Source of the DNA: a virus
Virus record (IMG/VR): IMGVR_UViG_3300025012_000103
Location: 1-57,553 of that record
Length of the DNA stretch: 57,553 nt
Strand: one strand, 5' to 3'
A program made the translations under genes and the position numbers. Shown piece by piece: positions 20,660-40,145 of this stretch (the first letter of the stretch is position 1; each line of letters starts with the position of its first letter). The notes under the pieces are model-generated. The model did not search any database. It was not told the DNA's origin and saw only the letters and a list, made by a program, of their open reading frames with translations.

Positions 20660-21832
20660 GTGCGAAGAGCTCACAAAATAAAGTTAAAGCCAAACAATAA
20701 GCAAGCCACTTTCTTTAAGAAAGCCTGTGGTGTCCGACGTCTGGCTTTTAACTGGGGTCTGGCGGAGTGGAAAAGACAATACGAAGCTGGGGAGAAGCCC
20801 TCTACCTCTGGAATCAGAAAACAGTTCAACGCTTTGAAGAGGTCAGATTTCCTGTTTGCTTATGAGACTCCTGCAGGAGTAACTGCCCAAGCGTTTTCTG
20901 ATCTTGACACTGCCTTTAAGAACTTTTTCAGAAAGACGTCAAGGTACCCAAGATTCAAAAAGAAAGATCAACGAGATGCTTTTCGATTAGATAACCAAAA
21001 ATTTAAGCTTGATGGTAAAAGTATCAGGATACCAAAGTTGGGCTGGGTAAGAATGCAGGAGTCTCTCAGACTCTCAGGTAAGCTCTTATCAGCAACGGTG
21101 AGTAAAGAAGCAACAGGTTGGTTTGTATCTATCTTGGTAGAGATTCCAGACGGTTCTGAATGCAGCGATAGCCAAGTGTATTCAGCCGTTGGCGTTGATC
21201 TCGGGATAGATAAATTGGCAGTGCTCTCTAACGGGAGAATTTTTGAGAATCCCAAGACGACAAAGAAATATGAAAAGAGACTTCGACGGCTCAATAAATC
21301 CCTGGCCAGGAAAAAGAAAGGTAGCAATAATCGAGAGAAAGCAAAAAAGAAGCTGGGCCTTTTGCATTCTAGAATCAGAAACGTCAGGAAAGACGTTTTG
21401 CATAAGTTGACGTCATACCTTGCTGATAACTATTCAGACATATGTATAGAGGATCTGAATACATCAGGAATGGCGAAGAACCGACGTCTTGCAAAGAGTG
21501 TTCAAGACGCCTCTTTTTCTGAAATTAGAAGGCAACTTGTTTATAAATCTATCAGAGTTCACGTCGTGGGGAGGTTCTTCCCAAGCACAAAGCTCTGTAT
21601 GAGTTGTGGTCAGTTGCATGACATGCCGTTAAATAAGAGAACTTTCCAGTGCTCTTGTAATGGTGTCTCTATTGATAGAGACCTTCACGCAGCTCAAAAT
21701 ATACTACGGGCGGGTTGCCCGAACGTCAAGCCTGTGGAGAGAGAAGCTCTGGTTCTTAGGCAATTGCCCGGGAACGAAACTATTTTCTGGGAAGCAGGAA
21801 ATCAACCAGAGTCTCTGACTCTAGGAGTTTGA
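20660..21832 (+). CDS. tnpB: TnpB RNA-guided nuclease, copy 1
   Basis: 390 residues, IS200/IS605 OrfB type. RuvC parts are GVDLGIDKLAVLSNG (Asp, about residue 178), DICIEDLNTSGM (Glu) and DRDLHAAQNILRAG (Asp). A zinc finger lies between the last two (CMSCG ... CSC). N-terminal KIKLKPNNKQATFFKKACGV is typical. No tnpA is present. It uses GTG, is more AT-rich than its neighbours, and is inserted exactly between the chaperone stop and the tape measure ATG. A right-end hairpin (21808-21822) overlaps its last codons and is followed by AGGAG, which is also the tape measure ribosome binding site. TnpB cuts DNA with a guide taken from its own right flank. Confidence 0.93.
   Translation: MRRAHKIKLKPNNKQATFFKKACGVRRLAFNWGLAEWKRQYEAGEKPSTSGIRKQFNALKRSDFLFAYETPAGVTAQAFSDLDTAFKNFFRKTSRYPRFKKKDQRDAFRLDNQKFKLDGKSIRIPKLGWVRMQESLRLSGKLLSATVSKEATGWFVSILVEIPDGSECSDSQVYSAVGVDLGIDKLAVLSNGRIFENPKTTKKYEKRLRRLNKSLARKKKGSNNREKAKKKLGLLHSRIRNVRKDVLHKLTSYLADNYSDICIEDLNTSGMAKNRRLAKSVQDASFSEIRRQLVYKSIRVHVVGRFFPSTKLCMSCGQLHDMPLNKRTFQCSCNGVSIDRDLHAAQNILRAGCPNVKPVEREALVLRQLPGNETIFWEAGNQPESLTLGV
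21808..21827 (+). ncRNA. Right-end hairpin of TnpB copy 1 (putative omega-RNA 3' end)
   Basis: AGAGTC-TCT-GACTCT (21808-21822) plus AGGAG. The matching position in copy 2 has a different sequence that also folds. The omega-RNA of TnpB normally covers the end of the gene and the right end; bounds here are inferred. Confidence 0.55.
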
Positions 21833-27800: not shown

Positions 27801-28073
27801 CGTGATTATTGGAAGACTATCGGAGCGGTCAACGAACTTGAGCGGTTGACTACAGGGCGGATGGAGGCCAACGAGCAGTCTGTTCCGGTGATCTCAGTTC
27901 GAGACATTGCTGAGTCTGATAGGAAGAGCACCGCGGCGATGGTCGCGGAGCTGCAAGAACTTCGTGGGTCGATTGTTGAGGGCAACGTTCAGAATATCAA
28001 AACCAATCTGAAGACGGCTCGGCTGATTGAGCGTTGGGAGGCGATTGGTATGCCTATCACGAGGACTGCGTAA
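21834..28073 (+). CDS. Tail tape measure protein
   Basis: 2079 residues, the largest gene, which fits a long tail (roughly 0.3 micrometre by the usual 0.15 nm per residue). It has the TP901-type core at about 320-560 (DLATMSKFATIAEMDLGEAI ... AAASLAIMANAG-type Ala-rich helices), hydrophobic parts near 1080-1160 (LARWAMGALGSAILGGLGGG) and Gly-rich runs. Residues about 1727-1935 are three repeats of about 66-69 residues (xxGxSxxDKAL ... AKELGASExDLxKIRELQ). The start has AGGAG, lying in the end of TnpB. It sets tail length and is threaded through the tube; hydrophobic parts may insert in the host membrane. Confidence 0.94.
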   Translation: MSGQIHVGVSVSQQGLQDIDKLVSKLQKTGEITEKTAASFKTSTKGISEFLGQVKAAQTSLTQMAEAYNKGGLALREFNAGLKASTAQTITDRKAVQDLVTTYQLWGGTFDTLYSKQYRKIVTSKAEQAVTSSLLGIHQKIIATKAQEIALTDSATIAMGKALAVTQADLAIKKAHLLVDEAYSKQMMVNAVLRSGETLAIKQQALAYAGIPPIKMAVAAATEAEAMAANASAGANMKSAAATTAAGRAASGASGAFTTYGSAVRGAAGAMGMLWFAYGQLLPMMAAFAGVRVAKEAMSLGVAFEYTTKSIQSLSKDVEGAAMPLEKIQQQLMAMEGLRHTPTELAAGMREFAKAGIGPADALRDLATMSKFATIAEMDLGEAIKDIIGLTLAFQPTMEAATGEMFTFADAANMVAAAAMLSITDVKEMSSAFSHAAELGIVSKMRFEEVAASLAIMANAGIRGTKAATSLRTGMLKLQTAGDPVHKMFAELGRKFNAFNEDGSVKNVIETFEELNRALIGVTDEKRIAVFTKLFTARSMKAGAVLSQQVKELDAFIKKLEEAAEGMGFIEEKYQDLASTVGAELDYLRVEVEKQLLGMVNTDWLAEMVSGLREFVHSAAPEVRDALGGIKDTLEILYTSAKTFQDLGGPSMGEWGLIGYALLRGGPQAAAVVAALSVINEALAEFGLNIGALGPKAVSLNETLTHLWEGLSGQRDMDTGQWSFLVDVPSHEELSWGVAAYADSIYELANQTKIGVNSAVSSHQTFLQSLDELSRGLAAFYGSGLTAGGIGDALSSDEQAMLDRLLPLQKAQKDFAQGLIELDVLAKKTGMSTTDYNIALENLKKSTTESTKFTKESTKAFKDHSNEIQNTIDKYLPLKKEVEETDKAERILIQAQKDGKITADELVVALDNLTKSTTAYKDKSKEAAEQVKQIKKNLEEWEKQQKAAADLASKRSKAYQDIYKELADSSAKMSWESYQAQRQAIDEGLADYESMQVNEDLLRELRKKREEELYIKWARSAGGFFDGFAAGALEAANTLNGLGEVGYKVFNELTETFQGTFVAAIKGDFESIGDLWDSLLDRMLDLFINWIASLLARWAMGALGSAILGGLGGGWSGALSGLAGAFGGGGGGGGAGSYLGAAASIGSTGYQMYTGESALAAAAKWAAAKAGITQAAPAAQGAAEGLGIYQGSSIGAGAGGGLGTYGASQGTYGVLSSQAGASPGTYGVLASDAAPAAPSGAGAGFSGLSSAAGMAAIAVTAAVMFVGHLIEKQKPHEADAYNAMGLRPADFASLIGEGFKRVVLPVLGESNAKWDVATSTMLLAQGPESFKAQRDRGRSDLEEFPNPAATGISGMTWNASATTWERTGNFEAEKILRGEGLFQMLGHESAPKTIEEYAAALERAGVALDASTVQDLWEWGQATRINSEIIKDAQASLAAHGGDLKKALDLVEWSMLDLGGSAAEAEKYLSNLGYTQKETTELIQGLDRTLTKGRAGLGSMSDMIIRALFEQGQISEVTALAMLRQNRATQLLEESSLMAGTNITMASVGLGQLGSEASQLLGTSSVVSSSLGAAGDQFQDFADTVVSGIGHIRYSAESLFDLAAPTEAPPEAGMKNGGIIGYASGGLLRGGSMVRDDLYLGTVNGVAQVAQGGEYIMPQDQTKKHLRLLENIRADRYADGGPTRLPAPGTTPRPGAGDLLSDVRHSRTPDDLKSLQDMMRDISRSMSLMAGTDLDKALLELYYQFEDQIKEAKALGASEVDLNQIRQLQVAEAAELIKANKEAQSDFMTGIQDQIDDFGLSDLESALRETRRERDEQIKQAKELGLGEEALIKIRELQKLKAMELRDAQAKALGDFMLDVTDQMAMLGMSETDKALFQLNREMEDMIESAKELGASESDLAKIRELYGMKAAEAMNQGLKEAVTAMGSFRDSMLSLGDASVRSAGAQQELFNILGQARKGDFSGVEAIGDVLKDISIDKSKYATAADYARDYWKTIGAVNELERLTTGRMEANEQSVPVISVRDIAESDRKSTAAMVAELQELRGSIVEGNVQNIKTNLKTARLIERWEAIGMPITRTA

Positions 28074-29686
28074 TGAAGCTTCTCAAGCCCGTTCCAGTTA
28101 CTGATGCTTCTTTGTATGGCTGTTCTGTGGCGGAGCCAACCGCGACAGAGTGGGCGACGCTGGCGACAGGTTTTGAAGCCTGGGCTGTCGCCCATACCTA
28201 TGCCTCCGGGGATAAGGTTTTTGTTGCCAGCACTCACCGGCTTTACGAGTCTCTTCAGAGTGCCAACACTGGCAATGACCCGACGTTGACGGCGAGTGCT
28301 GCCTGGTGGTTGGATCTGGGTGCGACGAATCGCTGGAAGCAGTTTGATCAATCGGTCGGGTCAGTGACCTCTGCTGATGATTTTCTGATCGTGATGGTGA
28401 AGCTGACGGATGCTGATTTTGTGGACTCTCTGGCATTGCTGGATATTGTCGCCAATCATGTAGTTGTTGAGTTGCTGGATGATGCTGTTTACGGGACGAT
28501 GAGCCCGAGCAGCTCTCCTTCGGCAACGGCGAGCCCATCCGGAGCAGCGAGCCTGAGTTCTTCTGTTTCGTCAAGCCCGACGACTTCAGCTTCGTCGAGC
28601 ACGAGCAGCAGCCCGAGTGGGTCAGCTTCAAGCAGCCCGAGCAGCAGCCCGTCTTCGAGCCCAACGACAAGCCCTTCTTCAAGCCCGAGCAGCAGCCCGA
28701 GCGCTTCAGTATCAGGAAGCCCGACGACGAGCCCTAGCGCTTCAGTATCAGGAAGCCCAACAACCAGCGCCTCAGCCAGCATTTCGTCAAGCCCCAGCGC
28801 TTCAGCTTCCAGCAGTTTGAGTGCCTCGACCAGCCCTTCTGGTGGGGCGAGTGTCAGCCCGTCCGGAGGCGCCAGCGCCAGTTCTAGCCTTTCTGACAGC
28901 CCCTCGGCGTCGCCGAGTGTTAGTGGGGCCAACTATTTGACGGACGGCTCTGGCAACTATTTGACGGACGGCGCCGGCAACAGGTTGAAAGATGGTGGGG
29001 CCGCCGGCGGGGGGGCTTCAACTTCACCCTCAGCGAGTGTTTCCTCGAGTCCGACGACCAGCCCGAGTAGCAGCCCGAGTAGCAGCCCGACGACAAGCCC
29101 GAGCAGTTCTGTGAGCGCCAGTCCCAGTGCATCAGCGAGCGCCAGCCCTTACCCAGTGGGGGTGCTTTGGCATTATGAGACTGATTTGATCTCTGCTCCG
29201 GATGAGAATGATAACGATTGGTATCAGTATTTCTTCGCCTCACTAGAGAATCTGGAAGATTTCATCCTCCTTGATATGCCGACCTACACTAATGCAATAC
29301 TTAAAGTTACCTTAACAGGAACAAGTGTGGAGGTAGGTACGTTTGCTTTTGGAAAATCTGTCTTTATTGGGGACACTCAATGGGGATTGCAATTAGGAAT
29401 CACGGATTACTCAACAAAAGAGACTGACGAATTTGGAGTGACCTCTATTGTTGAGAGGGTCTTTGCAGACAGGATGGACTGTGATCTTTTCCTGGAGCAC
29501 AGTTTGGTCAGAATGGTGAAGAAATTACTCGCCAGTGTCAGGGCCACACCTTGTATTTGGATGGGATCTGAGACCAGTACATTTTCCGAGTTAACAATTG
29601 TTTATGGATTCTACAAGAATTTTGATATAGTACTGCAAGATTACGGCGGGAGCATCTGCTCTCTCGAAGTCGAAGGTCTAACTTAA
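28073..29686 (+). CDS. Tail-tip protein with inserted Ser/Pro repeats
   Basis: 537 residues from the ATG overlapping the tape measure stop (TAATG). The N-terminal part has HTYASGDKVFVASTHRLYES ... DPTLTASAAWWLDLG, a carbohydrate-binding-module 5/12-like motif seen in phage tail proteins. Residues about 143-282 and 316-359 are Ser/Pro/Thr repeats, with an interlude of NYLTDGSGN-type units (NYLTDGSGNYLTDGAGNRL). The C-terminal domain (about 360-537) starts GVLWHYETDLISAP and is beta-rich. Together the ends resemble one distal tail protein split by the repeat insert. It is the largest such insert in the window. Confidence 0.72.
   Translation: MKLLKPVPVTDASLYGCSVAEPTATEWATLATGFEAWAVAHTYASGDKVFVASTHRLYESLQSANTGNDPTLTASAAWWLDLGATNRWKQFDQSVGSVTSADDFLIVMVKLTDADFVDSLALLDIVANHVVVELLDDAVYGTMSPSSSPSATASPSGAASLSSSVSSSPTTSASSSTSSSPSGSASSSPSSSPSSSPTTSPSSSPSSSPSASVSGSPTTSPSASVSGSPTTSASASISSSPSASASSSLSASTSPSGGASVSPSGGASASSSLSDSPSASPSVSGANYLTDGSGNYLTDGAGNRLKDGGAAGGGASTSPSASVSSSPTTSPSSSPSSSPTTSPSSSVSASPSASASASPYPVGVLWHYETDLISAPDENDNDWYQYFFASLENLEDFILLDMPTYTNAILKVTLTGTSVEVGTFAFGKSVFIGDTQWGLQLGITDYSTKETDEFGVTSIVERVFADRMDCDLFLEHSLVRMVKKLLASVRATPCIWMGSETSTFSELTIVYGFYKNFDIVLQDYGGSICSLEVEGLT
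28501..29148 (+). repeat. Ser/Pro-coding repeat tract 3
   Basis: Two blocks (28501 to about 28920 and about 29018 to 29148) of Ser/Pro/Thr units. The antisense strand is open by chance because of the regular codon pattern. Confidence 0.88.
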
Positions 29687-34472: not shown

Positions 34473-35294
34473 ATGAGCCAGGTTCTCATTGCGCCGACAA
34501 CGGCCGCTGCGGAATACAAAATGAAGATTCCGCAAAACAGGTTCAACATGACGATCCAAGTCGACGCCAACATCGGTGCCGCGGAAGTCGTTGAGATCAA
34601 ACAACTGGATACTGATCAGCAGTGGCGGGCGATTAAGCTTGGCGGGGCTGCCTTGGTCTTGTCGGCGAGCAACACGCAGGTGAGCTTCACGGCAACAAAT
34701 CTGATCAAGCTGGTGAAGTCGACCACTGTCAATGCTATTGGGGTTCAGCTTCTGTCTGACCTCGGCTTTGGCGATAACGAAGCTTCTGACAGCCCGAGCG
34801 CTTCGGCTTCGTCGAGCCCGACTACCTCACCGTCGTCCTCAGCTTCGTCCAGCGCTTCCTCTTCAGCTTCTTCGAGTCCGACGACCAGCGCTTCTTCGAG
34901 CGCTTCTTCGAGCCCGACGACAAGCCCGAGTAGCAGTGTTTCGTCCTCAGCTTCCTCGAGCCCAAGCTCCTCGGCTTCGGCGAGCGCCTCAGGCAGCCCG
35001 ACGACCAGCCCGAGCACGTCAGCCTCGAGCAGCCCGACGACCAGTCCAAGCGCCTCGGCCTCAGCAACGGCAAGCCCGTCTGGGGCAGCGAGCTTGAGTT
35101 CTTCGTTGAGCAGCAGCCCAAGCGTTTCAGCTTCTGGCAGCCCGACGACCAGCCCGAGCACGTCAGCTTCTTCGAGCCCAACGACCAGCCCGAGCGCTTC
35201 CGCTTCTTCGAGCCCGAGTTCTTCGGCTTCGGCAAGCCTGAGCGGCAGCCCGACGACCAGCCCGAGCGCTTCCCCGTCAAGTTCACCGTCTTAA
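34473..35294 (+). CDS. Mucin-like Ser/Pro repeat protein
   Basis: 273 residues, AAGGAGGG ribosome binding site. Residues 1-105 are a compact beta domain (YKMKIPQNRFNMTIQVDANI, NLIKLVKSTTVNAIGVQLLS). Residues about 107-273 are almost only Ser, Pro, Thr and Ala in SPTTSPSSSASSS-like units, with one break (ATASPSGAASLSSSLSSSPS). Such tracts are extended and are classic O-glycosylation substrates. The next three genes code for glycosyltransferases and methyltransferases, so this may be the main modified surface protein. Confidence 0.7.
   Translation: MSQVLIAPTTAAAEYKMKIPQNRFNMTIQVDANIGAAEVVEIKQLDTDQQWRAIKLGGAALVLSASNTQVSFTATNLIKLVKSTTVNAIGVQLLSDLGFGDNEASDSPSASASSSPTTSPSSSASSSASSSASSSPTTSASSSASSSPTTSPSSSVSSSASSSPSSSASASASGSPTTSPSTSASSSPTTSPSASASATASPSGAASLSSSLSSSPSVSASGSPTTSPSTSASSSPTTSPSASASSSPSSSASASLSGSPTTSPSASPSSSPS
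34788..35291 (+). repeat. Ser/Pro-coding repeat tract 5
   Basis: About 500 bp of imperfect AGCCCGACGACC/TCGGCTTCG-type units, the densest tract in the window, just upstream of the glycosyltransferase cassette. Confidence 0.88.
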
Positions 35295-35306: not shown

Positions 35307-36782
35307 ATGTTAAGCGTGGTTATCCCATCCCGCAATGAGCAGGGATATCTGGAAAAGACTATCGAGTCCCTCTTGGCCAACGCCGAGGGGGATATCGAGA
35401 TTATCGTTGTGCTCGACGGCTGGCTCCCGGAGCGGCCGATCGAGTTCCCAGTGAGTGACAGACAGCAGATTCACTGGCTTCACAACCAAGAGCACCTTGG
35501 GCAGCGGCAAGCGATCAACCAGGCTGCCCGGGTTGCCAAGGGCAAATATATCATGAAGCTGGATGCGCACTGTGCCGTGTCAAAGGGCTTTGACTTGATC
35601 TTGGCCCGAGACTGTGAGTATGACATGACGATGATCCCCAGGATGTACAACCTGGACGTCGTGACGTGGCAGCCAAAGTGGCACAAGCGCACTGACTACA
35701 TGTATATCGGGCTGGTTGAGGGCAACCTCCGGGCGCAGTATTACAAGAAGCAGCCCGACAACGACAAGATGATCGACGACACGATGTGTTGCATGGGGCC
35801 TGGGTTCTTCCTGCATCTGGACAGGTTCTGGGAACTTGGCGGCTGCATGGAAGAGCACGGTGGCTGGGGTCAGCAGGGTGTGGAAGAATCCGCGAAGGCG
35901 TGGCTTAGCGGCGGTCGGATGGTGGTCAACAAGCACTGCTGGTTTGCTCACTGGTTCCGCGGGGGTGGAGTGCCTGAAGGTCACAAGAAAGGCTTCCCGT
36001 ATCACATGAGCCAGCATGCGGTCAATATCGCCCGAGCTTACAGCAATGACCTCTGGATGAACAATAAGTGGCCCAAGCAGACCAAGACCTTTCAGTGGCT
36101 GCTGGATAAATTCAACCCTCCAGGATGGAGCAAGGAAGATATGGCTATGGCAGGTAATCCAGCAGCATCGGCAGTGGCGCCGGCAGCCTCGCCGGCCCGG
36201 GCATTTTTCAACCATATGATGTCCGGAAACAAGATGCCCACATGGATGGGCTACCCGGTCATCAAATACCCCAACGACCTCATCTTGTATCAGCAGAAGC
36301 TCTTTGAAAAGCGGCCTGACGTCTTGGTCGAGGTCGGGACCCATAAAGGCGGCTCGGCCCTTTTTTTTGCCCAGATGATGGATCTCATAGGGCACGGGCA
36401 GGTGATCACTATCGACAAGTCGCATGACAAATATCCGCTGCCGCAGCATCCGCGGATCACTTACCTGACCGGGAGGTCGACGGCAACGGAGACGTTGACG
36501 CAACTGAAGGAGTTGGTCAACGGCAGCTCCGTTATGGTGGTGCTCGACGGCGATCATAGCCGGACGCAGGTGAAGCGGGAGTTGGTTCGTTATTCCGAGA
36601 TCGTCACACCCGGGCAGTACCTTGTCGCCGAGGACACAGTGATGGGGGAGATGGGCATGCCGGATAACCCGGCAGAGGCTGTCGAGTGGTTTCTCAAACG
36701 GACTGATAAAATCCAGCGAGAGCGGCCTGAGGCCCAGTTCATGTTCTCCTGCAACGGTGGAGGCTGGCTGAAAAAATTATGA
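35307..36782 (+). CDS. GT2 glycosyltransferase fused to CmcI-like methyltransferase
   Basis: 491 residues in two domains. Residues 1 to about 215 are family 2 glycosyltransferase: LSVVIPSRNEQGYLEKTIES, IIVVLDGWLPE, and the nucleotide-binding region GKYIMKLDAHCAV, then GCMEEHGGWGQQGVEESAKA, which suits the acceptor site (D/E-rich). An Ala/Pro linker (AASAVAPAASPARA) follows. The C-terminal domain (about 310-490: DVLVEVGTHKGGSALFFAQM, QVITIDKS, VMVVLDGDHSRTQVKREL) resembles the cephalosporin hydroxylase/CmcI (rhamnosyl O-methyltransferase) group. It may add and methylate a sugar. The next ATG overlaps its stop. Confidence 0.82.
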   Translation: MLSVVIPSRNEQGYLEKTIESLLANAEGDIEIIVVLDGWLPERPIEFPVSDRQQIHWLHNQEHLGQRQAINQAARVAKGKYIMKLDAHCAVSKGFDLILARDCEYDMTMIPRMYNLDVVTWQPKWHKRTDYMYIGLVEGNLRAQYYKKQPDNDKMIDDTMCCMGPGFFLHLDRFWELGGCMEEHGGWGQQGVEESAKAWLSGGRMVVNKHCWFAHWFRGGGVPEGHKKGFPYHMSQHAVNIARAYSNDLWMNNKWPKQTKTFQWLLDKFNPPGWSKEDMAMAGNPAASAVAPAASPARAFFNHMMSGNKMPTWMGYPVIKYPNDLILYQQKLFEKRPDVLVEVGTHKGGSALFFAQMMDLIGHGQVITIDKSHDKYPLPQHPRITYLTGRSTATETLTQLKELVNGSSVMVVLDGDHSRTQVKRELVRYSEIVTPGQYLVAEDTVMGEMGMPDNPAEAVEWFLKRTDKIQRERPEAQFMFSCNGGGWLKKL

Positions 36783-37246
36783 AGAGATCAGTTAGACGAT
36801 TTGTCAAACAACAAGTAGACAGGTTGGCCGCGGCCGGCGACTGTTTGGAGATCGGATCTTACGACGTCAACGGCAATCTCAGGCAAATCCTTGCCCACAC
36901 CAACTACACCGGTCTCGATATGCGGGAGGGGCCCAACGTCGACGTCGTCGCCAACAGCAACGACTTGCCCTTCCCGGATAATTTTTTCGACGTGGTCGTC
37001 TGTGTTGAAACATTCGAGCACGACAAGTTCTTTTGGAAGACTGTTACCCAGATCCGGCGAATCCTCCGGCCGGGCGGCGTAGTGATCTTGACGGCGCCGA
37101 GTATTGACTTCGGTATCCATGAGCATCCGAACGATTACTGGCGGTTTACTGAGGAAGGGCTCAAGTCTTTGATTGAGGACTGGTGCGGGGATATCGTCTC
37201 ACACTACCATGACCGGGCGGCATTCGTCGCAGGGAGGAAGCTCTAG
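36779..37246 (+). CDS. Class I SAM-dependent methyltransferase
   Basis: 155 residues with LEIGSYDVNGNLRQILAHTN (motif I), YTGLDMREGPNVDVV (motif II), LPFPDNFFDVVVCVETFEHD (motif III, as in Methyltransf_11) and ILRPGGVVILTAPS. ATGA overlap with the GT2-CmcI gene shows coupled expression. The target is likely a sugar or other small group on a phage glycan, inferred from its neighbours. Confidence 0.85.
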   Translation: MKRSVRRFVKQQVDRLAAAGDCLEIGSYDVNGNLRQILAHTNYTGLDMREGPNVDVVANSNDLPFPDNFFDVVVCVETFEHDKFFWKTVTQIRRILRPGGVVILTAPSIDFGIHEHPNDYWRFTEEGLKSLIEDWCGDIVSHYHDRAAFVAGRKL

Positions 37247-38863
37247 ATGGACACTAGCATAATTTTTTACACAGACGGATCTCTGGATCCGTTTCTTTTT
37301 ATCCGATGTCAGGAAAAACTCCTTGAGGCTGCCCAAGGTAAACGAATCATCTCTGTCTCTCAGCAGCCACTTGACTTCGGTGATAACATCTGTGTTGGCG
37401 ACATTGGCCGGAGCCACCAATCATTGTTCACTCAAATCCTCACAGGTGCAAAAGCGGCGACCACGAAGTATGTGGCGCTGGCGGAACACGATTGCCTGTA
37501 TTCTCCAGAGCATTTCAACTGGCAGCCGCCGAACGACTTTATCTTTTGGTACAATATCAATCATTGGTTCGTGCAGTGGGGTGGCACCAACACTGGGCAG
37601 TACAGCTATATGCGCCGGAAGGTCCTGTCAAACCTGATCTGCGAGCGAGGGCTGTTAATCGAGGCGGTGGAAGAGAAGCTGGCGATCCTCCGGCAAGGCG
37701 CCCAAATCCGGAAAGGGCTCCCTGGGGCTTGTGAGCCGGGCGTCTGCTCAAATGAAGACGCTTTCGTCGGCATCATTGGCAAGGATTTGGGCAAGGCGCC
37801 AGGGGATTATCGGGCAAAGGGGTTCTCAACTGTAGTGCCCAATCTCGACATCCGGCATGGGCAGAACTTCTCCGGTGGCCGGGTGGCCAAGAAGCAGTGT
37901 TATTCTCTGCCACACTGGGGAAGCTTCCATTCCGTCATGGGAGTAGTGCCACCGGGGAAGTGGTATCAGGAAGCCAATGTGCAGGGCGTTCAAATGCCTC
38001 AGCGGCGGACGAATGACACAAACGAAAAGCGCTGGCACAAGTTCATCAAGCCCTTGGTCGGTGCGCCTGGCACTGGTCGGATGACGGATCTGGGTTGCAA
38101 TGCTGGCTTTTACTGCCGGAAGTTTTCTGATCTGGGGTTCAGAGCCGTTGGCGTTGAGCGTGATCCTGAGGTCCTCAGGCATAATTACTGGTGGGAAGAG
38201 CATGAGCCCAAAGGTGTCAGAGTTGTTGAGTCTGACATCAATGACTTTCATCCGGGTTGCTCTGACTATGTTCTTCTGGCCAACGTCCATTACTGGTTGA
38301 CGCCGGCACAACTGCAGAAACTTGTGCAGAAGCTCAACGACCGGGCCTTGAACGTGATCTTGATTGGGAGATACAATACAGCAAAGGTCCACAAGTCACC
38401 GGCTGATCTACAATTCCTGCGAAAACTCTTTGTAAATTGGCAAGAAAAACAGGTTATTAAAGGGGTCAAGCACTTTTCGGTGTTGTTCCAGAACCCAACG
38501 TTAACTTCAAGAGGTGTCGATGAGTTGTTCTCCTGTCAACAATTTTTTAAGAGCAGCCGCTTTTTACCTTCATATTCAGACCTGATTGATGCTATACTGA
38601 AAGGCAAGAGTGGGAATCATCAGGATTCGCCTTATTATCAGTATCTGCTCTGGCGAGGATTCAAGGATAGTGATGAACTTCTCAAGCACCACGTTGACCT
38701 TGTTCCTAGTATTCAGCAGGAAGGTATTAAAGAACCACTATTGATTGGTCGAGTAGTCAATGGAAAGTATGAGGCGAATAGATTGGTTGATGGTGACCAT
38801 CGATTGATCGTTGCTCAGAAATTAGGGATAAAAAATGTTATTTGTCGAGTTGTCAAACCGTAG
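37247..38863 (+). CDS. Three-domain protein: GT, methyltransferase, ParB-like
   Basis: 538 residues. Part 1 (1 to about 210) is a GT-A-type glycosyltransferase-like domain with YVALAEHDCLYSPEHF (acidic metal/nucleotide-binding motif). Part 2 (about 265-400) has MTDLGCNAGFYCRKFSDLGF and VGVERDPEVLR, a class I methyltransferase. Part 3 (about 480-538), QEGIKEPLLIGRVVNGKYEA and VDGDHRLIVAQKLG, is the core of a ParB/sulfiredoxin-like domain. Two enzymes for surface sugar change fused to a nucleotide-binding ParB fold is an unusual layout. The start follows the previous stop directly, with AGGAAG upstream. Confidence 0.78.
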   Translation: MDTSIIFYTDGSLDPFLFIRCQEKLLEAAQGKRIISVSQQPLDFGDNICVGDIGRSHQSLFTQILTGAKAATTKYVALAEHDCLYSPEHFNWQPPNDFIFWYNINHWFVQWGGTNTGQYSYMRRKVLSNLICERGLLIEAVEEKLAILRQGAQIRKGLPGACEPGVCSNEDAFVGIIGKDLGKAPGDYRAKGFSTVVPNLDIRHGQNFSGGRVAKKQCYSLPHWGSFHSVMGVVPPGKWYQEANVQGVQMPQRRTNDTNEKRWHKFIKPLVGAPGTGRMTDLGCNAGFYCRKFSDLGFRAVGVERDPEVLRHNYWWEEHEPKGVRVVESDINDFHPGCSDYVLLANVHYWLTPAQLQKLVQKLNDRALNVILIGRYNTAKVHKSPADLQFLRKLFVNWQEKQVIKGVKHFSVLFQNPTLTSRGVDELFSCQQFFKSSRFLPSYSDLIDAILKGKSGNHQDSPYYQYLLWRGFKDSDELLKHHVDLVPSIQQEGIKEPLLIGRVVNGKYEANRLVDGDHRLIVAQKLGIKNVICRVVKP

Positions 38864-38895
38864 CCGGGGGCAACAACTGCTTCCAAATAAGTTGT

Positions 38896-38907
38896 AAAAA
38901 GTTACAA
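38896..38907. repeat. Left arm of 12-bp inverted repeat around TnpB copy 2
   Basis: AAAAAGTTACAA, the reverse complement of TTGTAACTTTTT at 40111-40122. The two bracket TnpB copy 2 by 26 bp on the left and within its last codons on the right. Confidence 0.6.
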
Positions 38908-38932
38908 AAACTTATTGACAGAGGTTAGAAAC

Positions 38933-40126
38933 GTGCTGCAAAGAGCCCACAGAATAAAGTTAAAGCCAAACAATAAGCAAGTGACCTACTTCAAGAAAGC
39001 TTGCGGCGTCCGACGTCTGGCATTTAACTGGGGTCTGGCAGAGTGGAAGAGGCAATACGAAGTCGGCGAGAAACCCTCTGCTTTTGGGCTTAATAAACAG
39101 TTCAACGCCGTGAAGAAGTCAGAGTTTCCGTTTGTTTCTGAAGTCACGAAGTGTGCTCCACAGAGAGCTTTTGCTGACCTTGAGAAAGCATTTAAAAAGT
39201 TTTTCAAAAAGACGTCGAGGTACCCAAAATTTAAAAAGAAAGGCCAACGGGACTCTTTCTATGTTGATAATCTGAAGTTCAAGCTCAACGGCAAGAGCAT
39301 CAAGATACCAAAGTTGGGCTGGGTAAGAATGCAGGAGTCTCAGAGACTCCCGGGCCGGCGCTTGTCAGCAACAGTAAGCAAGGAAGCAGCAGGTTGGTTT
39401 GTGTCTATCACGGTAGAGATTCCAGACGGTTCTGAATGCAGCGATAGCCAAGTGTATTCAGCCGTTGGCGTTGACCTCGGGATAGATAAATTGGCAGTGC
39501 TCTCGAATGGGATAACTTTTGAGAATCCCAAGACGACAAAGAAATATGAAAAGAGACTTCGACGGCTCAATAAATCTCTGGCCAGGAAAAAGAAAGGTAG
39601 CAGTAACCGAGAGAAAGCAAAAAAGAAACTGGGCCTTTTGCACTCTAGAATCAGAAACGTCAGGAAAGACTTTTTGCATAAGTTGACGTCATACCTTGCT
39701 GATAACTATTCAGATATTTGTATAGAGGATCTGAATACATCAGGAATGGTGAAGAACCGACGTCTTGCAAAAAGTGTCCAAGACGCCTCTTTTTCTGAAA
39801 TCAGAAGGCAACTCGTTTATAAATCTATCAGAGTTCACGTCGTGGGAAGGTTTTTCCCAAGTACGAAGCTCTGTATGGCGTGTGGTCAGCTGCATGACAT
39901 GCCGTTAAATAAGAGAACTTTCCAGTGCTCTTGTAATGGTGTCTCTATTGATAGAGACCTTCACGCAGCTCAAAATATACTACGGGCGGGTTGCCCGAAC
40001 GTCAAGCCTGTGGAGAGAGAAGCTCTGGTTCTTGGGCAATTGCCCGAGAATGAAACTACTTTCTGGGAAGCAGGAAATGTACACAAATTCAATGGGTTTG
40101 AAGGAGCCCCTTGTAACTTTTTGTAA
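38933..40126 (+). CDS. tnpB: TnpB RNA-guided nuclease, copy 2
   Basis: 397 residues from the GTG at 38933 (GAGG upstream; a longer TTG form begins at 38915). Long parts are nearly identical in DNA to copy 1, with most differences in the N-terminal third (SEVTKCAPQRAFADLEKAF against YETPAGVTAQAFSDLDTAF). RuvC and zinc-finger motifs are intact (GVDLGIDKLA, CIEDLNTSGM, CMACG ... CSC, DRDLHAAQNIL). Identity to copy 1 stops after GAAGCAGGAAAT. It lies between the glycan cassette and an exported protein gene. The high identity points to recent duplication or separate gain from a shared source. Confidence 0.93.
   Translation: MLQRAHRIKLKPNNKQVTYFKKACGVRRLAFNWGLAEWKRQYEVGEKPSAFGLNKQFNAVKKSEFPFVSEVTKCAPQRAFADLEKAFKKFFKKTSRYPKFKKKGQRDSFYVDNLKFKLNGKSIKIPKLGWVRMQESQRLPGRRLSATVSKEAAGWFVSITVEIPDGSECSDSQVYSAVGVDLGIDKLAVLSNGITFENPKTTKKYEKRLRRLNKSLARKKKGSSNREKAKKKLGLLHSRIRNVRKDFLHKLTSYLADNYSDICIEDLNTSGMVKNRRLAKSVQDASFSEIRRQLVYKSIRVHVVGRFFPSTKLCMACGQLHDMPLNKRTFQCSCNGVSIDRDLHAAQNILRAGCPNVKPVEREALVLGQLPENETTFWEAGNVHKFNGFEGAPCNFL
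40088..40106 (+). ncRNA. Right-end hairpin of TnpB copy 2
   Basis: TTCAA-TGGGT-TTGAA (40088-40102) plus GGAG, at the position of the copy 1 hairpin but with different bases. It is the likely omega-RNA 3' end; the guide would follow. Confidence 0.5.
40111..40122. repeat. Right arm of 12-bp inverted repeat around TnpB copy 2
   Basis: TTGTAACTTTTT, pairs with 38896-38907. It also forms a local hairpin (GTAACT with AGTTAC). Confidence 0.55.
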
Positions 40127-40145
40127 GTTACATAAACCAGTCAAT

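Follow-up and report, generated by a model that had tools for sequence, protein, structure and literature searches.

What does a viral protein do that carries parts resembling a glycosyltransferase, a methyltransferase (MT) and ParB in a single chain? The question is raised by P0001, a protein encoded in the IMG/VR virus record IMGVR_UViG_3300025012_000103, of which positions 1-57,553, a stretch of 57,553 bases here called the window, were studied. A sequence-only reading had proposed three domains in one protein and suggested that the third could prepare or sense a nucleotide sugar. Our analysis favors, as a fairly probable reading, a three-domain glycan-modifying enzyme in a glycosylation island, an activity that we infer; the probable outcome is that a modified sugar is attached to the virion or to the host.

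P0001 is one gene

All three stretches cited in the sequence-only reading lie within a single open reading frame, which begins with ATG and has GGAGG 10-14 nt upstream of this start. A frame error that joins two genes had been named as an outcome that would overturn the proposal, and most relatives do encode the N-terminal domain (N-domain) and the methyltransferase-ParB part (MT-ParB) as separate genes. In a codon-by-codon comparison of P0001 with its closest relative, L002, which was gap-free and had 468 of 538 residues identical, dN/dS was 0.052 overall. By part, it was 0.046 for residues 1-225, 0.044 for the methyltransferase and 0.078 for residues 418-538, and it was 0.029 at the junction (residues 226-262). 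Differences at the three codon positions numbered 62, 40 and 237, i.e., 237 of 339 fell at the third position. In addition, the identical fusion layout was present in three further viral contigs (L002, L003 and L011) when other viral DNA was searched for it. Given these values, a frame error or chance reading, with two genes joined or a spurious third domain, has virtually no chance of being correct. P0001 is one genuine gene, constrained over its full length, and the three domains in one protein were borne out by the intact frame and by profile, fold and motif evidence (Table 1).

Table 1. Positions in the window of P0001, its domains and neighboring genes of interest
Feature	Position	Strand	Remarks
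GT-MT-ParB fusion gene P0001	37247..38863	+	538 aa; stop codon within coordinates
GT-A-like glycosyltransferase domain (predicted)	37247..37942	+	P0001 residues 1-232; family of standalone phage proteins, fold match
Class I SAM methyltransferase domain	37958..38500	+	P0001 residues 238-418; GxNAG and N-V-H-Y motifs
ParB/sulfiredoxin-superfamily domain (putative)	38501..38860	+	P0001 residues 419-538
D515-G-D-H-R519 motif	38789..38803	+	Box II / GxxR position; family alignment
GT2 + rhamnosyl O-methyltransferase/CmcI-like fusion	35307..36782	+	491 aa; Glycos_transf_2 E 3e-18, RMNT_CmcI E 6.5e-41
Standalone SAM methyltransferase	36779..37246	+	155 aa; Methyltransf_11 E 4.5e-12
Ser/Thr-rich repeat protein	34473..35294	+	58 S+T in 80 residues; 12 nt upstream of GT2 gene
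Second protein with Ser/Thr-rich stretch	28034..29686	+	55 S+T in 80; overlaps tape-measure gene end

Domains of P0001

Pfam support for the N-domain was negligible, with no match in a scan of P0001 residues 1-232 and a best score among 10 members of E 0.019 (Glyco_transf_25). The predicted structure of residues 1-204 matched 6p61, a Leptospira glycosyltransferase that we take to have a GT-A fold (Z 13.0, rmsd 2.9, 165 aligned), suggesting that the modeled N-domain has this fold as well; 6p61 was the single glycosyltransferase among 50 rows listed for the full-model fold search, the remaining rows matching the methyltransferase. The N-domain family is large and consists of standalone phage proteins of ~220 aa. 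Relatives were confirmed in 129 of 155 scanned stretches, and the best 80 of the 129, representing 79 loci, were used. E80, D82 and Y85 (E80-x-D82..Y85; AEHDCLY) were invariant in the N-domain alignments (A3, 10 rows; A8, 24 of 50 non-redundant picks out of 168) and may form a DXD-like site. N-domain relatives were also found fused behind GT2 domains (e.g., L029:6677-8317). MT-ParB occurred within about 6 kb in just 7 of the 79 N-domain loci, which argues that it is an accessory.

By its fold and SAM-binding motif, the second domain is a class I SAM methyltransferase. Pfam Methyltransf_11 matched residues 281-362 over its cut-off (E 2.4e-5), the domain aligned with 1ve3 (Z 19.7, 169 aligned, rmsd 2.5), and its G-x-G motif reads GCNAG. 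An N-x-H-Y motif was present in 25 of 28 aligned MT-ParB members; in L099 and L105 the site reads M-x-H-Y instead, and in L117 it reads N-F-I-Y. PF13489 matched many members, mostly under its cut-off. The best NCBIfam match was TIGR04290 (E 4.4e-7), but it was confined to the methyltransferase part and, at 29.6 bits, well under that model's threshold of 300; tblastn also gave weak matches of the methyltransferase to TIGR04290 methyltransferases. In the one TIGR04290 case examined, the gene belongs to a glycan cluster whose other members include glycosyltransferases and a UDP-glucuronate decarboxylase. WbdD was among the methyltransferase profile matches (E 2.5e-4) and ranked third in Foldseek (E 2.2e-9). 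It did not appear among the top 50 entries of VIA, where class I methyltransferases were near-tied, and the likeness to WbdD is thus not special.

Several profile comparisons point to a ParB-like C-terminal domain. Pfam ParB_N matched residues 484-532 with E 0.018, under its cut-off; the PF02195 gathering score was reached by none of the scanned family proteins, with a match at E <= 0.1 in 12 of 28 members. A PHROG ParB-like match had E 1.9e-4. When the C-terminal domain profile (28 members) was compared by hhalign with three annotated or Pfam-recognized ParB-type phage proteins, the probability was 96.3%; a control with an unrelated profile gave 1.2%. PDB profile matches at E <= 10 were singly weak (7e-4 at best, up to 0.35), and 19 of 21 were ParB/Noc/Spo0J/SbnI/SerK/sulfiredoxin entries, counting 1vk1, labeled 'conserved hypothetical protein', which we take to be a SerK-type entry.

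Structure prediction agreed with these matches. AlphaFold2 modeled the C half of P0001 as one packed body (pLDDT 90.0, pTM 0.88), and the full protein with pLDDT 81.4 and pTM 0.54, weak at residues 234-257 and between 303 and 325. A predicted structure lacking a ParB fold in the last 60 residues would have spoken against the sequence-only reading. These residues were instead predicted as alpha-beta-beta-alpha-beta (pLDDT about 93-96 until the final few), with H475-492, E498-504, E507-513, H518-525 and E530-535 and with GDHR at 516-519; alpha-beta-beta-GxxR-alpha-beta is the order that we would expect of a ParB core. Fold searches with both models listed methyltransferases in nearly all rows and no ParB entries among them, barely probing the ParB-like domain, and a viral fold library search of P0001 listed methyltransferase-type entries. 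From profiles and model, residues 419-538 appear to be a domain of the ParB/sulfiredoxin superfamily.

The motif in this domain suggests which branch of the superfamily it resembles. GxHR was present in 28 of 28 aligned members and DGxHR in 27 (EGNHR in L112); the residue following G is variable (N, D, G, Q, L or I), and four members outside the alignment that reach the motif have DGxHR as well. Switch-type ParBs in the same profile search have GERR, not DGxHR. With a shorter C-terminal profile, SbnI matched at E 0.004, its VIDGVHR aligned with the family DGxHR, and SerK, compared by aligned range rather than by residues, was among the C-terminal profile matches (E 0.05-0.15). Box III, the second P motif, is absent from P0001, whose chain ends 19 residues past R519; ParB of phage Doggs, by contrast, continues to AENIERQ. 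P0001 has neither an HTH nor a C-terminal dimerization domain, as judged by the chain end, with no residues past the ParB-like domain, and by Pfam. A ParB CTPase DNA clamp, which would have Box III, HTH and dimerization domain, was therefore rejected.

Because the motif is DGxHR rather than GERR and Box III is absent, an SbnI/SerK/Srx-like minimal domain is favored over a CTP clamp. SerK kinase activity has been published (PMC5120207). However, SbnI and SerK are proteins of about 240 aa that act on free serine, whereas the P0001 domain is ~120 aa, C-terminal, behind a methyltransferase and in a glycan island; the NCBIfam SerK model scored 12.1 bits on P0001 against a family cut-off of 380, and homology would be at the superfamily level only. 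DGxHR may be linked to catalysis. It is plausible, by analogy of fold (PMC12704722), that the domain binds some nucleotide. The proposal that it prepares or senses a nucleotide sugar found no support: the domain has the SbnI-like DGxHR, Box III is missing, and no feature of it points to nucleotide sugars.

Divergent ParB-like domains were also seen in two long multi-domain proteins (L067:5128-7743 and L079:2801-5998), between glycosyltransferase and Methyltransf_24-type domains. Their motifs are RGWRR and KGYRR, respectively, with the His of DGxHR lost.

MT-ParB family and origin of the fusion

Proteins of the two-domain MT-ParB family, which occurs in uncultivated phages, mostly have a gene to themselves (about 305-330 aa). 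A search with this half of P0001 recovered 31 viral loci. They include four contigs that were already part of the dataset (L090, L096, L110 and L119) and, by ORF layout, three near-identical pairs (L091/L093, L094/L095 and L100/L102), leaving fewer than 31 independent cases. The alignments of this family (A7, A9, A10 and A11) hold 28 of 35 distinct matches; left out were L093 (an X), L102 (>90% identical to L100), L109 and L116 (>340 aa), and L104, L108 and L111 (end before the motif). A further, mixed alignment (A6) was discarded because it appeared misaligned.

GT2-type genes were present in all 31 loci. An N-domain gene was found in 29 of 31, as the immediate neighbor in 22 and at -60 to +200 nt from MT-ParB in 20, mostly with a 4-nt overlap. 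The fusions in the window, L002, L003 and L011 form one clade (support 1.000), to which L113:3809-4801 and L115 are joined with a support of 0.959. At L113:3809-4801, an upstream N-domain gene overlaps MT-ParB by 4 nt, presumably the state before fusion. As part of the explanation that we prefer, and with the same fair degree of confidence, the fusion arose by joining of two neighboring, translationally overlapping genes. A second fusion type, GT2-MT-ParB, was found in L109 and L116 elsewhere in the tree and looks like a separate event. Throughout the loci L010-L119, GT2 domains, N-domains and several methyltransferase types are widely reshuffled, often with 4-nt gene overlaps; modular glycosyltransferase/methyltransferase islands are described here in many uncultivated phages.

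A tblastn search of P0001, the L091 MT-ParB and the L030 N-domain against 50,697 phage records (cultured phages) gave no match, and the ParB part alone gave weak matches there (E 0.02 to 1). The longest match of the ParB part, L009, was an ordinary ParB and was set aside. A search of MT-ParB against 379 genomes of the phylum of L087 yielded 3 matches, all confined to the methyltransferase part, and a plasmid search yielded TIGR04290-type methyltransferase matches only. In a scan of cellular genome contigs, the single N-domain relative was L087:8981-9904, in a Zambryskibacteria MAG. This protein continues into a tail that, by eye, looks like the GIY-YIG type, and the contig has several glycosyltransferase-like genes besides it.

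Genomic setting and probable function

The upstream part of the window encodes terminase, portal, protease, major head, tail and tape-measure proteins, followed by unassigned genes that we presume from their position to be tail-tip genes. P0001 is followed by a peptidase and by long ORFs of no assigned function. P0001 is the last gene of a short glycosyltransferase/methyltransferase island among the tail genes, and the stop codon of the standalone methyltransferase directly abuts its start. The two Ser/Thr-rich proteins in Table 1 are candidate acceptors. Of the 31 MT-ParB loci, 21 had an ORF in which S+T made up 40 or more of 80 residues, as did 59 of the 77 N-domain loci (L010-L086). No such ORF turned up in 50 overlapping 12-kb windows taken from lambda, Doggs and HK97; these three cultured phages are a small control, and the enrichment is therefore a lead. 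When the threshold was raised to 50 of 80, 1 of the 31 MT-ParB loci and 14 of the 77 N-domain loci still passed. Separately, the two Ser/Thr-rich genes of the window share Ser/Thr-Pro-Ala repeat DNA with 24- and 36-base periods.

The same pair of domains in phages has been described by Kaljevic et al. (PNAS 2025, PMC12704722), who list fusions of Methyltransf_23 (PF13489) with a ParB-CTPase fold with predicted DNA methyltransferase activities; the comparison is with their main text, and these fusions may include MT-ParB proteins. The earlier view that the layout belongs to no standard family thus holds in that the layout is unusual, but not in the sense of being wholly unprecedented. P0001 could be a DNA-modifying enzyme, a DNA methyltransferase with a ParB-like domain, as this naming of the domain pair would have it. 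The PHROG DNA methyltransferase family phrog_498 is also weakly similar to the ParB-like part (E 0.0046). However, motif IV of amino- or C5-type DNA methyltransferases, which we define as [DNS]PP[YFWH] or PC[QN], was present in 0 of 28 methyltransferase domains of the family. Moreover, glycosyltransferases are fused or nearby in 31 of 31 loci, the gene lies in the tail region rather than a replication region, and no DNA-modification gene was seen among ten other window ORFs scanned. DNA modification was rejected as the main reading on motif IV and the GT2 genes, and we consider it highly unlikely. The lack of motif IV, the glycan-gene neighbors and the fusions together make glycan methylation likely.

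The glycan context argues against the label of predicted DNA methyltransferase for phage Methyltransf_23-ParB fusions; instead of modifying DNA, as has been presumed, these would probably modify glycans. The main text of PMC12704722 describes no glycosyltransferase fusion or glycan context ('glycos' occurs in one reference title only), and we found no report of a glycosyltransferase-methyltransferase-ParB protein in the literature searched, this main text included. Relative to it, the new elements are the preceding glycosyltransferase domain and the location in a glycan island.

In the glycan-modifying enzyme that we favor, the GT-A domain would transfer a sugar, as its family, fold and E-x-D site suggest, and the class I methyltransferase would O-methylate the glycan, judging from its motifs and neighbors. 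The ParB-like domain may be a nucleotide-binding, possibly phosphotransferring module; the ParB/sulfiredoxin/serine-kinase fold may thus be recruited to sugar chemistry. The likeliest acceptors would be the repeat proteins rich in Ser and Thr whose genes adjoin the island, the alternative being a host-surface glycan, and such proteins next to MT-ParB fusions offer a testable substrate. Virion glycosylation is known in mycobacteriophages, a subject touched on in the abstract of an announcement (PMC11256854). Against a nucleotide-binding module, 17 of 28 purified ParB-fold proteins in PMC12704722 did not bind NTPs; a SerK-like protein in that study bound CTP.

A serious but clearly less favored possibility is that the enzyme acts on glycans as above and the ParB-like domain is a nucleotide-sensing or structural gate of the methyltransferase, without phosphotransfer. 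Domains of the ParB-CTPase fold frequently act as switches, and ATP binding is reported for a bacterial SAM-MT fusion (PMC12704722). The residue after G of the motif varies, unlike a fixed catalytic residue, and the C half was modeled as one packed body, both of which would suit a gate. However, the near-invariant D, H and R of DGxHR match the kinase SbnI and not the GERR of switch-type ParBs.

The target of the island might also be a polysaccharide on the host surface instead of the virion, serving receptor masking or superinfection exclusion. Sets of glycosyltransferases and methyltransferases resemble O-antigen gene sets, and phage serotype conversion of the GtrB type is known. Protein P0002 has a faint GtrB-like PHROG match (E 0.039), and TIGR04290-type relatives occur in a bacterial glycan cluster. 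However, the island lies between tail-tip genes and Ser/Thr-rich repeat genes, and no flippase or lipid-carrier enzyme was recognized among the scanned subset of ORFs, examined without transmembrane prediction. We regard this target as rather doubtful.

WbdD, the O-antigen kinase/methyltransferase of E. coli O9a, first adds a phosphate to the terminal mannose and then a methyl group to that phosphate (PMC3482155). It consists of an N-terminal class I methyltransferase and a phosphotransferase-type domain, and this combination is thus a known glycan-capping layout; however, its second domain is a eukaryotic-type kinase (PMC3482155), whereas that of P0001 is ParB-like. By analogy, the N-domain might add the terminal sugar of a virion glycan, the ParB/SerK-fold domain with its DGxHR motif phosphorylate it and the methyltransferase methylate the phosphate, yielding a methyl-phosphate cap. 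Such a course of events is improbable on present evidence. To our knowledge, no ParB-fold glycan kinase was known previously; if real, this would be the first, convergent on the O-antigen cappers.

Directly after the P0001 stop codon, an OrfB/TnpB-type element was found at 38865-40144 (ORF 38915-40126), with no transposase A seen. L002 is free of this element, and its fusion gene runs straight into the next gene. The encoded protein is 86% identical over 381 residues to a second OrfB/TnpB protein of the window (20660-21832), and both lie beside tail genes; two copies in one phage suggest duplication or repeated insertion.
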